From contig NC_003552.1 of assembly GCF_000007345.1 (NCBI RefSeq), positions 868,001 through 932,000 of the forward strand: a stretch of DNA of 64,000 bases, given 5' to 3'. Every line of letters begins with the position of its first letter. Positions within the stretch are counted from its first letter, which is position 1. This document shows, one piece after another, positions 29,067 to 34,800 of the stretch. A program made the position numbers and the translations under genes. The DNA comes from Methanosarcina acetivorans C2A. Its GTDB lineage: Archaea; Halobacteriota; Methanosarcinia; Methanosarcinales; Methanosarcinaceae. The notes beneath the pieces were generated by a model that was not told the origin of the DNA, made no database searches, and was given only the letters and a program-made list of their open reading frames with translations.

Positions 29067-29196
29067 AGCGGCGCAACCTTCGAATTTCCAATCGAAGGAT
29101 TTGAGGGGGGCTGGGGCGGAAATATTATAAAAAAAGTGATATTTCCAGGTCTTTCTACGGCTTTTTGCTGATTTTTGTCTTCTATTTTTGTTTCCA
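29067..29196. repeat. cassette repeat, copy 1 (before hicBA)
   Basis: Begins AGCGGCGCAACCTTCGAATT and ends TTTTTGTTTCCA. It holds a hairpin, CCTTCGA-ATTTCCAA-TCGAAGG (29077-29098), and AAAAAGTGATATTTCCAGGT. Copies 2 and 3 lie after hicA and after hepT. The bases following it, ATCTTTAAATACTCACAG, match those following copy 2 and may be a promoter. Confidence 0.9.
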
Positions 29197-29240
29197 TATC
29201 ATCTTTAAATACTCACAGCCCTAATGTTATTCTGGTAAAG

Positions 29241-29468
29241 ATGGAAGGCAAGAGCTTGAATTACACGGTTCTGATCGAACAAGACGAAGATGGTGTATAC
29301 GTTGCAAAGGTTCCTGACATACCGGGTTGTTATACTCAGGGAAAAACAGTTGAGCAGGCTATGGAGCGTATAAGGGAAGCGATCCAGGTTTGTCTTGGGG
29401 CTGAGGAACTTGAAGATGTCCTGCCGCTGAAATTTATTGGAATTCAGCAGGTAGAGGTAAAAGTATGA
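29241..29468 (+). CDS. hicB: HicB-family antitoxin
   Basis: 75 residues from ATG 29241. The sequence SLNYTVLIEQDEDGVYVAKV and PDIPGCYTQGKTVEQAMERI is the classic HicB partial RNase H-like fold: 'y-v-i--dedG-y-a-vPdlpGc-t-G-T-eEA'. HicB binds and blocks its partner HicA and usually represses the operon. An upstream in-frame start at 29175 would add 22 residues but overlaps the cassette repeat, and the pseudogene copy at 34622 also starts at the equivalent ATG, so I use 29241. The stop overlaps the start of hicA by four bases. Antitoxin-first order is the less usual arrangement. Confidence 0.9.
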   Translation: MEGKSLNYTVLIEQDEDGVYVAKVPDIPGCYTQGKTVEQAMERIREAIQVCLGAEELEDVLPLKFIGIQQVEVKV

Positions 29469-29698
29469 GCAGGCTCCTTCCTGTAAGTGGAAGGGATATG
29501 TGCAAAATACTTGAGATGCTTGGCTTTCAAAAGGTGCATCAGGTTGGGAGCCATGTGAGATACGTTCATCCTGACGGCAGAAAAACAGTAGTGCCTGTTC
29601 ACGGAAACGAAGATTTGGGCACTGGTCTGATTAAAGAAATCCTGAAGCAGACCCGGATTTCTCGGGAGACGTATGAGGAATTAAGGAAAAAAGTTTGA
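29465..29698 (+). CDS. hicA: HicA-family mRNA-interferase toxin
   Basis: 77 residues. KILEMLGFQKVHQVGSHVRY, then HPDGRKTVVPVHGNEDLGTG and LIKEILKQTRI match HicA, a double-stranded RNA-binding-fold ribonuclease. His29 in the GSH motif is the catalytic histidine of the family. ATG overlaps hicB (ATGA), so translation is coupled. Toxin-antitoxin pairs of this type are stress or phage-response modules; here they sit next to a STAND NTPase and an MNT/HEPN pair. Confidence 0.92.
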   Translation: MSRLLPVSGRDMCKILEMLGFQKVHQVGSHVRYVHPDGRKTVVPVHGNEDLGTGLIKEILKQTRISRETYEELRKKV

Positions 29699-29936: not shown

Positions 29937-30233
29937 ATGGAAAATGCTGACCGGCACAAAGAGTTGTTCGAAAAAATCTCTTTGTTCCTCCAAAAGGAAG
30001 GAGCAACAAAAGTAGCTGTTTTTGGCTCTTATGCAAGAGGAGAGGAAAAGCCGGAAAGCGATATTGACATTCTTGTAGAGTTTTCTGAAACAAAAGGTCT
30101 GCTAACCCTTGTCCGGATTGAGAGGGAACTCTCGGAGTTGCTCAGGTTAAAGGTCGATTTGCTTACCGAAGAATCGATAAGTCCGTATCTTATTGATGGG
30201 ATCAAAAGGGAAGCAAAAGTGATCTCTACATGA
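29937..30233 (+). CDS. mntA: MNT-domain nucleotidyltransferase antitoxin
   Basis: 98 residues; minimal nucleotidyltransferase. The catalytic signature GSX10DXD is exact: GSYARGEEKPESDIDILVEF. The active-site serine and both aspartates are present, so it should be active. Known MntA antitoxins add AMP groups to a tyrosine of the HEPN toxin and so silence it. ATGA overlap with the next gene indicates coupled translation. ATG 29937 lies 71 bp after cassette repeat copy 2. Confidence 0.92.
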   Translation: MENADRHKELFEKISLFLQKEGATKVAVFGSYARGEEKPESDIDILVEFSETKGLLTLVRIERELSELLRLKVDLLTEESISPYLIDGIKREAKVIST

Positions 30234-30580
30234 AAAAGAATGATACGGTTTACCTCAACCATATCCTTAATTCAATCGAAAGGATTGAAGAATATACTGA
30301 GGGTCTGGAAAGAGAAGATTTTCTATCCAGCAATCTGGTTCAAGACGGAACGATAAGGCAGATTGAGATCATAGGTGAAGCTACCAAACACTTATCAAGA
30401 GATTTTCGGGAGAAGAATCCTCAGGTTTCCTGGAAGGACATTGCGGGTATGAGGGATCGGTTAATTCACCATTATTTCGGGGTTAATCTGAAAGATGTTT
30501 GGTATACTGTGAAAGTCGATATTCCGGCTTTGAAAAATGATATTCTGGCTATATTCGATGCACTTAAGACTGAAAAATAA
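30230..30580 (+). CDS. hepT: HEPN-domain ribonuclease toxin
   Basis: 116 residues, all alpha-helical. The HEPN signature RX4HXY is exact in MRDRLIHHYFGV, with the Arg and His forming the ribonuclease site and the Tyr the AMPylation target in studied pairs. Other family marks are QIEIIGEATKHLSRDFREKN and SWKDIAGMRD. Pairs with the nucleotidyltransferase before it, starting four bases inside that gene. Confidence 0.92.
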   Translation: MKKNDTVYLNHILNSIERIEEYTEGLEREDFLSSNLVQDGTIRQIEIIGEATKHLSRDFREKNPQVSWKDIAGMRDRLIHHYFGVNLKDVWYTVKVDIPALKNDILAIFDALKTEK

Positions 30581-31377: not shown

Positions 31378-32142
31378 TTAGACTTTTTCCCCATAAATTA
31401 AATGGGATTGAGGTTTGAAGACTATTCTTTTTCGGAAGGACATTTTTTCCTTCTGAATTTTAGAGATTTCTTTCAGGTCCAGATCCTTAATGTTTTTAAA
31501 CCCTGTCTTCCTGAAGTATTCGATCGTTTTTTTCGGTGGAACTCCATAGGGGTTTGGGAGTTCGGTTTTGATTTCGTCAGGATACTGTTTTCTTCCTGGA
31601 TACCTTCTCTCGACAAGAAAAGTTAAGAAGTCACTGATAAATTGCCTTGTTTTTCTTTCAATCGAACCGCCATTATAGAGCCCGTCTATAACGATAAGCA
31701 CTCCTCCTTTCCTGAGTACTTTCTCCCAGTTCCTGACTGCAGTATCAGGGTGCGGAAGAGTCCACAGTAAGTGACGGGTTACAACAACATCAAAAGTTTC
31801 CGCTTCAAAAGGAGGATTTTCGGCATCTCCTGCTCTGAAATTAATGTCATACTTTTTCCGGGATGTTTTTTCTCTTGCTTTTGCAAGCATTTGCTCCGAA
31901 AGATCAAGCCCGGTAACATGATGCCCCATTTCTGTAAATAAGAGTCCGATTTCCCCTGTCCCGCAGCCTGCATCGAGCACTTCCAGCCTGCCTGAGGGAA
32001 GCAGACTTCGAAACAGGGTTTTCCATGCTTCCTTTTCTATTTCGCTCTGGATTCCATGCCCTTCTTTGTTGTCGTAGGTTGCGGATGAGATGTCCCAGAC
32101 ATGAGCAATATCCAGTTTCATCTGTTTATCCTGAATAGCCAT
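31378..32142 (-). CDS. class I SAM-dependent methyltransferase
   Basis: 254 residues, Methyltransf_11/25 type. Motif I VLDAGCGTGEIGLLF, motif II HVTGLDLSEQMLAKA, post-II DAENPPFEAETFDVVVTRHL and motif III VLRKGGVLIVIDG. It transfers a methyl group from S-adenosylmethionine to a small molecule or protein; the substrate cannot be told. AGAGGAATC precedes ATG 32142. Transcribed away from the hydrolase gene, across 280 bp of AT-rich DNA. Confidence 0.88.
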   Translation of the reverse strand: MAIQDKQMKLDIAHVWDISSATYDNKEGHGIQSEIEKEAWKTLFRSLLPSGRLEVLDAGCGTGEIGLLFTEMGHHVTGLDLSEQMLAKAREKTSRKKYDINFRAGDAENPPFEAETFDVVVTRHLLWTLPHPDTAVRNWEKVLRKGGVLIVIDGLYNGGSIERKTRQFISDFLTFLVERRYPGRKQYPDEIKTELPNPYGVPPKKTIEYFRKTGFKNIKDLDLKEISKIQKEKMSFRKRIVFKPQSHLIYGEKV

Positions 32143-32423
32143 ATCTTGATTCCTCTTTTAGTGCTTTCAATTGATACAATAGTCCATTTTTGATGTTCTT
32201 AAAACATGTCTTAAAGTTTTATAATCCCTGGCAACTCGATTGTTTGCTAGCATCAAAAACTAACTAAAAGAACACCTGATTCTGGTGGTTTATTTTATAA
32301 TGAATAGGAAATAATTATGGATTATAAAACGTCCGTCGAATAATAAAGGAATATTAAAACGCACTCTTGTATAATAGCAGAAAACGTCAAAGCTTTTGCG
32401 TTTGCAGCCGGGGAGTTAATCAA

Positions 32424-33380
32424 ATGAAAACTAAAATCCTAAGGATTGTACTGTTTATCATTGGGATTTTAAGTGGCATAGGTACTGTGTTTATCGCAAT
32501 CACTTTCCCCCGTTACCATTGTGAAATGCATGGGGCTTATGGTTGCTTGTCAACTGGCAGCAAAATCTATAAAACTGATTACGGAGACATCGAATTTGCA
32601 GTAAAAGGAGAGGGACAGCCTGTTTTGTTGCTGCATGGTGCAGGCGGTGGTTATGACTAGGGCCTCTGGTTTGGCAGGGTGGGTCTTGGAAATGGTTATA
32701 AATTCATCTCGGTTTCTCGTTTCGGTTTTCTTCGCTCGCCAATCCCGGAAGGTGCCTCCATTAAGTTACAGGCAGCCCAATATAAGGCTCTGCTGGATTA
32801 CCTGAACATAAAAAATGTTATCGTTTTTGGCGCTTCGGCGGGGGGGCCGTCAGCCACACAGTTTGCTAATGATTATCCTGAGCGTTGCTCGGTATTGCTG
32901 CTGTTATCTGCAGTAAGCAGGGCTCACATTCCCGGTGATCGGGAACCGTTTTACGTTAATATTATTCATCGCGTCCAGCAATCTGATTACATATACTGGC
33001 TCATTTCCAGATTTTTTCAATCACAAATTCTGAGCCTCATGGGAATTCCTCCCCAAATATACAGGCATTTCACTCCTGAACAGAAAGTTCTGGCTCAAGA
33101 AATGCTGGATATAATGCATCCGATGAGCCCAAGGTACGGAGGTACAAAAAACGATGGTGAGATGCTCGAGAATTATCACATAACAACTGATAGGTTAACT
33201 GCGCCTGCGCTGATAATACATGCTAAAGATGATTCATTGGTTAGCTATGAGCATGCTGAATATGCGCATAAGAACATCAAACAATCTAAACTTATTTTGT
33301 TTGACACTGGCGGTCACGGGATGCTGCCTCAAATGGAAAAAGTTAGAAGAGAATTAAATGAATTCTTAAGTGCGGTTTAG
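32424..33380 (+). CDS. alpha/beta hydrolase with in-frame TAG (possible pyrrolysine at residue 79)
   Basis: Reading 32424-33380 as one frame gives 318 residues with a single internal TAG at 32658-32660. The reading VLLLHGAGGGYD-TAG-GLWFGR joins the HG oxyanion motif to the downstream part without any frame change; relatives generally have YDQG here, so CAG to TAG explains it. After the TAG: nucleophile elbow VFGASAGGPS, acid HAKDDSLVSYEHA and histidine DTGGHGMLPQ. ATG 32424 follows GGGGAG (32410-32415); residues 1-25 form a signal or membrane helix. In Methanosarcina TAG can be decoded as pyrrolysine. So either a full-length Pyl-containing hydrolase or a nonsense mutant. Confidence 0.75.
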
Positions 33381-34511: not shown

Positions 34512-34621
34512 GGTTTTCTCTCCATTTCCTACCCGGATATTTGCGGTCCTCAGCAAAATTTGTCTTTTATTCTGGTTGTAGCAGTTTTAAGTATTCACAG
34601 ATTAAATGTTGTTCTGGCAAG

Positions 34622-34800
34622 ATGGAAGGCAGGAGCTTGAATTACACGGTACTGATATAAGCAGGACGAAGTTGGTGTATACGTTGCAAAGGTTCCTGAC
34701 ATATCGGGGTTGCTATACACAGGGTAAAACTGTGGAACAGGCTATGGAACGTATAAGAGAGGTGATACAGGCCTGTCTAGACTCTGAGGGACTCTGAAGG
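34622..34800 (+). pseudogene. degraded second copy of hicB
   Basis: ATG 34622 starts MEGRSLNYTVLI, the same as hicB at 29241, then meets TAA at 34658. Past this, the DNA still aligns with hicB to the end (CAGGCTATGGAACGTATAAG), with one-base insertions near 34659 and near 34705. Even the 40 bases upstream (TTTAAGTATTCACAG, GTTGTTCTGGCAAG) match those before the intact hicB. No hicA follows. A dead duplicate of the cassette start. Confidence 0.85.

Follow-up and report, generated by a model that had tools for sequence, protein, structure and literature searches.

An in-frame amber codon in an otherwise intact alpha/beta hydrolase gene of Methanosarcina acetivorans: a candidate pyrrolysine protein

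In archaea that carry the pyl genes, UAG is used both as a sense codon and as a stop (PMC2933860, a review). In Methanosarcina acetivorans, a uidA gene with an introduced amber codon yielded 20-30% full-length pyrrolysine product without any special context, and the PYLIS element was helpful yet not essential for read-through of mtmB (PMC2933860). The amber codon of Thg1 occurs in M. acetivorans only; its protein was observed to contain pyrrolysine, which was not essential for activity, as stated in the passage of PMC2933860 that cites Heinemann 2009. Amber codons are also annotated in a TetR-family regulator and in transposases of M. acetivorans, reported from sequence alone (PMC1914089, PMC3639795). 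Finally, Chaudhuri and Yeates counted 97 UAG frames in M. acetivorans that show read-through similarity (PMC1242214), and the hydrolase gene described here may already figure among them.

The window analyzed in this work is a stretch of 64,000 bases (868001-932000) of the M. acetivorans C2A genome, which forms one contig of 5,751,492 bases. The genome harbors pylT (tRNA-Pyl, anticodon CTA), pylS, pylB, pylC and pylD in a single cluster at 181-189 kb, and PylS (718.8 bits), PylB (602.2), PylC (557.6) and PylD (419.5) all score over their NCBIfam cut-offs. The pyl set is complete, so that TAG can be read as pyrrolysine in this organism.

There is an alpha/beta hydrolase gene of 318 codons plus stop on the forward strand at window positions 32424-33380, recognized by translation, Pfam and its relatives. 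It contains a single internal stop, the TAG at 32658-32660 (codon 79), and neither translation nor the alignment with relatives revealed a second stop or a frameshift across the 318 codons. A Shine-Dalgarno-like GGGGAG (32410-32415, +) was found by eye 8 bases upstream of the ATG at 32424. The first part of the frame encodes a hydrophobic helix (residues 2-43; 32427-32552, +), apparent in the sequence and in the AlphaFold2 model, which is a probable membrane anchor. Further on lies HGAGGGYD (residues 71-78; 32634-32657, +), invariant among close relatives, the oxyanion loop running into helix A. The TAG comes next, and the open half downstream (239 codons plus stop; 32661-33380, +) carries no more lesions. 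This half includes Ser138 in the elbow GASAGG (32835-32837, +), which we take to be the nucleophile from what is known of the alpha/beta hydrolase fold. The probable catalytic acid Asp270 (33231-33233, +) and the probable catalytic histidine His298 (33315-33317, +) are likewise assigned from the fold; by motif, all three residues are kept in the hydrolase and are invariant or nearly so across relatives.

The Pfam domain Abhydrolase_1 spans the TAG as one domain (residues 66-299; 66.9 bits against a cut-off of 25.8). The AlphaFold2 model of the joined hydrolase has a mean pLDDT of 76.9 and consists of the N-terminal helix followed by an alpha/beta hydrolase, and a fold search with it matched 1587 PDB chains at E <= 0.001, the closest being 4y7d (E 1.3e-18). 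Residue 79 is placed at the beginning of helix A (77-88), immediately after the HGAGGGYD loop, in a region where pLDDT is low to middling and the modeled geometry is unreliable in detail. The gene thus encodes, probably, a membrane-anchored serine alpha/beta hydrolase with its anchor at the N-terminus. Termination at the TAG would give a 78-residue product comprising the anchor and three strands, devoid of nucleophile, acid and base. Two adjacent genes were considered and rejected, since the Pfam domain and all relatives continue across the TAG, and since no start codon in the downstream half is preceded by a convincing ribosome site. The coding signal of the hydrolase is weak (10th percentile among frames of similar length). 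An earlier note on this DNA had described a frame that is clean on either side of the TAG, a junction from HGAGGGYD to GLWFGR without insertion or loss, and a Ser elbow, Asp and His kept downstream. Our analysis agrees on each of these points, and the junction aligns free of gaps with 14 full or near-full relatives.

Relatives were sought in 31 genomes of the genus, in 112 genomes of the family and in bacterial MAGs. Within the genus, full-length intact relatives (60-65% identity) are present in seven genomes and short, frameshifted remnants in two (L024 and L026), while many of the 31 genomes have no member of the hydrolase family. Other genera of Methanosarcinaceae supplied four more full-length copies and one split between contigs, and outside the archaea there are copies in a Zixibacteria MAG (65% identity) and in an Acidobacteria MAG (57%, cut by a contig end). 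Whole-length identity to the joined hydrolase ranges from 57 to 65%, with E values down to 1e-141, and on this sequence comparison the match to the joined frame is far beyond chance. At the TAG site Gln is found in 14 of the 14 relatives, encoded in every case by CAG, and both remnants also have Gln. A single C-to-T transition is therefore sufficient to produce the TAG. This confirms the statement of the earlier note that relatives carry Gln here, as well as the proposal that one change from CAG to TAG is enough. In searches of 31 genomes of the genus and 112 of the family, no other genome was found to have TAG at codon 79. Distant hydrolases carry His, Cys or Ala at this site, and Gln is accordingly typical of the close family and not of the fold.

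In the phylogenetic tree, the 12 Methanosarcinaceae rows form one clade (100/99) and the present copy falls outside it, beside the bacterial rows, with the warning from the program that long rows, this copy included, are placed unsurely. Copies within the genus resemble one another at 83-93%, and the present copy resembles them at only 60-64%. That it is an orthologue of the genus copies is ruled out by the tree, as the clade excludes it. From its position, the hydrolase was probably acquired separately from the other Methanosarcinaceae copies, with some doubt left by the long branch. In the Zixibacteria and Acidobacteria MAG contigs (L045 and L050) the hydrolase family is surrounded by bacterial genes, suggesting that it has been transferred between bacteria and methanogens.

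The hydrolase is adjoined by a SAM methyltransferase gene on the reverse strand (31378-32142), with a paralogue at G000:C1:354502-355309. Two other genomes of the genus have copies of the methyltransferase at 87-91% identity, and these matches stop short of the hydrolase, which fits an insertion of the hydrolase at its present place. Several toxin-antitoxin-like genes were also observed in the window. Adjacent genes for a MntA-like nucleotidyltransferase and a HepT-like RNase (29937-30580, +) resemble a type VII pair, below NCBIfam cut-offs. A HicB-like/HicA-like pair (29175-29698, +) was recognized by eye and is unmatched in NCBIfam, and another HicB-like piece, which is truncated, lies at 34606-34797 (+). 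Many genomes of the genus also contain the DNA found near 34560-34700.

The constraint on the gene was estimated with a codon model that allows a separate omega on the hydrolase branch, fitted before and after the TAG. Omega before the TAG is 0.25 on this branch and 0.24 in the rest of the tree, and after it 0.17 on both (95% limits about 0.09-0.30); these values are averages over a long branch and give no date for the TAG, and a recent null allele would look alike. For the downstream half, the fit excludes terminal neutral evolution of more than about 0.22 changes per codon (some 10% of the branch) and is compatible with a shorter episode. Changes at sites conserved in Methanosarcinaceae downstream of the TAG number 27/149 in the hydrolase and 31/149 in the intact Zixibacteria copy. 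Given the omega of the branch and these counts, the sequence record indicates that the hydrolase remained useful throughout almost the whole of its separate history. A long-dead gene, which the earlier note had already argued against, is ruled out by the omega values, by conserved-site changes that do not exceed those of the intact copy and by the limit on a neutral phase. With purifying selection on either side and no decay, the TAG is either young or tolerated, if not both.

We consider that the hydrolase TAG is a CAG-to-TAG mutation confined to this species, leakily read as pyrrolysine and neutral or mildly harmful, of the Thg1 type, and give this reading a probability of about 0.58. A separately acquired hydrolase gene would recently have been hit, in one species, by a single change at the Gln79 codon. 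Charged tRNA-Pyl would compete with the release factor here as at any UAG, so that the majority of ribosomes should stop after 78 residues, with a product that would surely be inactive, and a minority would insert pyrrolysine at codon 79 and complete the 318-residue protein. Pyl79 would then be no selected catalytic residue, but an accident rendered less costly by the expanded code, as in Thg1. The intact frame, Gln in every relative, a TAG confined to this genome, purifying selection along the lineage and the pyl genes are established here, whereas the decoding of UAG 79, its frequency and any activity of the product are inferred. Strict conservation of Gln in the close family points to some harm from Pyl79, and a bulky residue at this position may well impair the enzyme; the Ala in 4y7d points to some tolerance.

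The main rival, possible although somewhat doubtful, is a young pseudogene that is being lost, its TAG terminating translation, with negligible read-through or a Pyl79 protein that has no activity. The decayed remnants in two relatives and the absence of the family from many genomes of the genus imply that the hydrolase gene is dispensable, and the invariance of Gln79 in the close family and the weak coding signal are also in favor of this explanation. However, a young pseudogene has to be reconciled with the lack of a second lesion across 318 codons, with a constraint that is unrelaxed on either side of the TAG (omega 0.17-0.25, matching the remainder of the tree), and with the fact that an amber codon is no absolute stop in M. 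acetivorans (PMC2933860).

The frequency of interrupted genes also bears on the pseudogene explanation. It was estimated from a sample of 1.66 Mb, made up of the window and 80 stretches of 20 kb at even spacing, where TAG is the stop codon of 40 of the 762 open frames of at least 250 codons. In this sample, 41 stops have coding-like frames on both flanks (TAA 16, TGA 17, TAG 8). All of the joined frames except one TGA case (40/41) were scanned with Pfam, and a gene was counted as interrupted when a domain spans the stop or when the two halves are parts of a single known protein. Three genes are interrupted by TAA (VIT protein, IS110 transposase and Vut_1), three by TGA (HAD hydrolase, HTH-DDE transposase and Rce1) and four by TAG (Thg1, PAS kinase, amino acid permease and TetR regulator); the Thg1, TetR and HTH-DDE cases are based on the literature or on known domain order, with no domain crossing the stop. 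Genes broken by TAA and by TGA are hence about as common as those broken by TAG, in favor of the pseudogene explanation. Given codon usage and a transition bias of 3, about 40% of interruptions should be TAG by mutation alone, and no TAG excess is visible among the interrupted genes of the 1.66 Mb sample (4/10, small numbers). A genome-wide excess of TAG was therefore discarded as support for decoding, and an in-frame TAG alone is weak evidence of it. The screen did not pick up the hydrolase itself, because of its weak coding signal.

Some of the interrupted frames merit mention. The amino acid permease frame L108:12115-13056 (G000:C1 about 2012115-2013056) has a single in-frame TAG (L108:12715-12717) inside its Pfam domain and is, by sequence, a candidate for read-through or a pseudogene. 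In the PAS/GAF sensor frame L094:6322-7524 (-; G000:C1 about 1026322-1027524) a PAS match crosses the interrupting TAG, and this is possibly the histidine kinase candidate of PMC3639795. The TetR-family regulator L131:15655-16350 (+) and Thg1 L093:1174-1911 (-), each with an in-frame TAG, act as positive controls; they probably correspond to the TetR gene with an annotated amber codon and to the protein with proven pyrrolysine. Pfam domains are cut by TGA or TAA in L085:17057-17977 (HAD hydrolase), L119:15537-16127 (Rce1), L103:17717-18733 (VIT) and L142:16760-17515 (Vut_1). These are ordinary pseudogenes, or else errors, and their rate is similar to that of the TAG cases.

Another explanation is a selected pyrrolysine, with Pyl79 catalytic beside the oxyanion loop or with the TAG tying the hydrolase to pyrrolysine supply during growth on methylamines. 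The position of codon 79, at the start of helix A and straight after the loop, and the constraint on the downstream half would suit such a role. On the other hand, no relative carries TAG. A PYLIS-type signal was also ruled out, as the 106 nt around and after codon 79 fold no better than shuffled sequences (z -0.46), and no methylamine gene was recognized in the neighborhood of the hydrolase. We thus regard selection for pyrrolysine as very improbable. A sequencing or assembly error hiding a real CAG is equally improbable: the change is a single base and one genome of the species was compared, but the gene is otherwise without oddity and a complete single-contig genome should hold few errors.

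Returning to the leaky decoding of a recent mutation, passive decoding is what is to be expected at this codon, considering the 20-30% read-through of uidA, the dispensability of PYLIS and the lack of structure found here. The label "candidate pyrrolysine protein" is fair for the hydrolase, whereas "new chemistry" is unsupported. The first part of the original proposal stands on the complete pyl system, a gene that is not long dead and a single step from CAG to TAG, without extending to a selected role. The second, a novel pyrrolysine beside an oxyanion hole, does not agree with the absence of TAG from relatives, the retention of Gln, and the lack of both a PYLIS and a TAG excess.

If a Pyl79 peptide were found, the hydrolase would be one more natural pyrrolysine protein that is not a methyltransferase, with pyrrolysine in place of a Gln invariant in close relatives, and it would provide a sharper test than Thg1 of the extent to which the expanded code shields genes from nonsense mutations. 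Should the selected reading be true, there would be a pyrrolysine enzyme outside methylamine metabolism with a residue or codon under selection. The base-rate count cautions against naming pyrrolysine proteins in M. acetivorans from an in-frame TAG by itself.

The best solved relative, 4y7d, an alpha/beta hydrolase fold protein of Nakamurella multipartita (sequence E 2.2e-24, fold E 1.3e-18), has Ala at the TAG site, no amber codon and no N-terminal anchor in the match, while the hydrolase has both the anchor and the TAG. The methylamine methyltransferases MtmB, MtbB and MttB share with it an in-frame TAG in a cell with pyl genes; however, in these enzymes different species share the TAG, which encodes a catalytic residue, whereas the TAG of the hydrolase is found in one genome only. 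The TetR-family regulator and the transposases resemble the hydrolase as amber-containing reading frames described from sequence, although the amber codon of the TetR regulator occurs in two species and that of the hydrolase in one. Unlike the hydrolase, with its Gln invariant in the close family, Thg1 (tRNA-His guanylyltransferase) is, in the account cited above, a protein in which pyrrolysine was seen. The Thg1 gene with its TAG was recovered independently in our sample of the same genome (L093), and it has in common with the hydrolase a species-specific in-frame TAG, sense codons in the relatives and an intact remainder.
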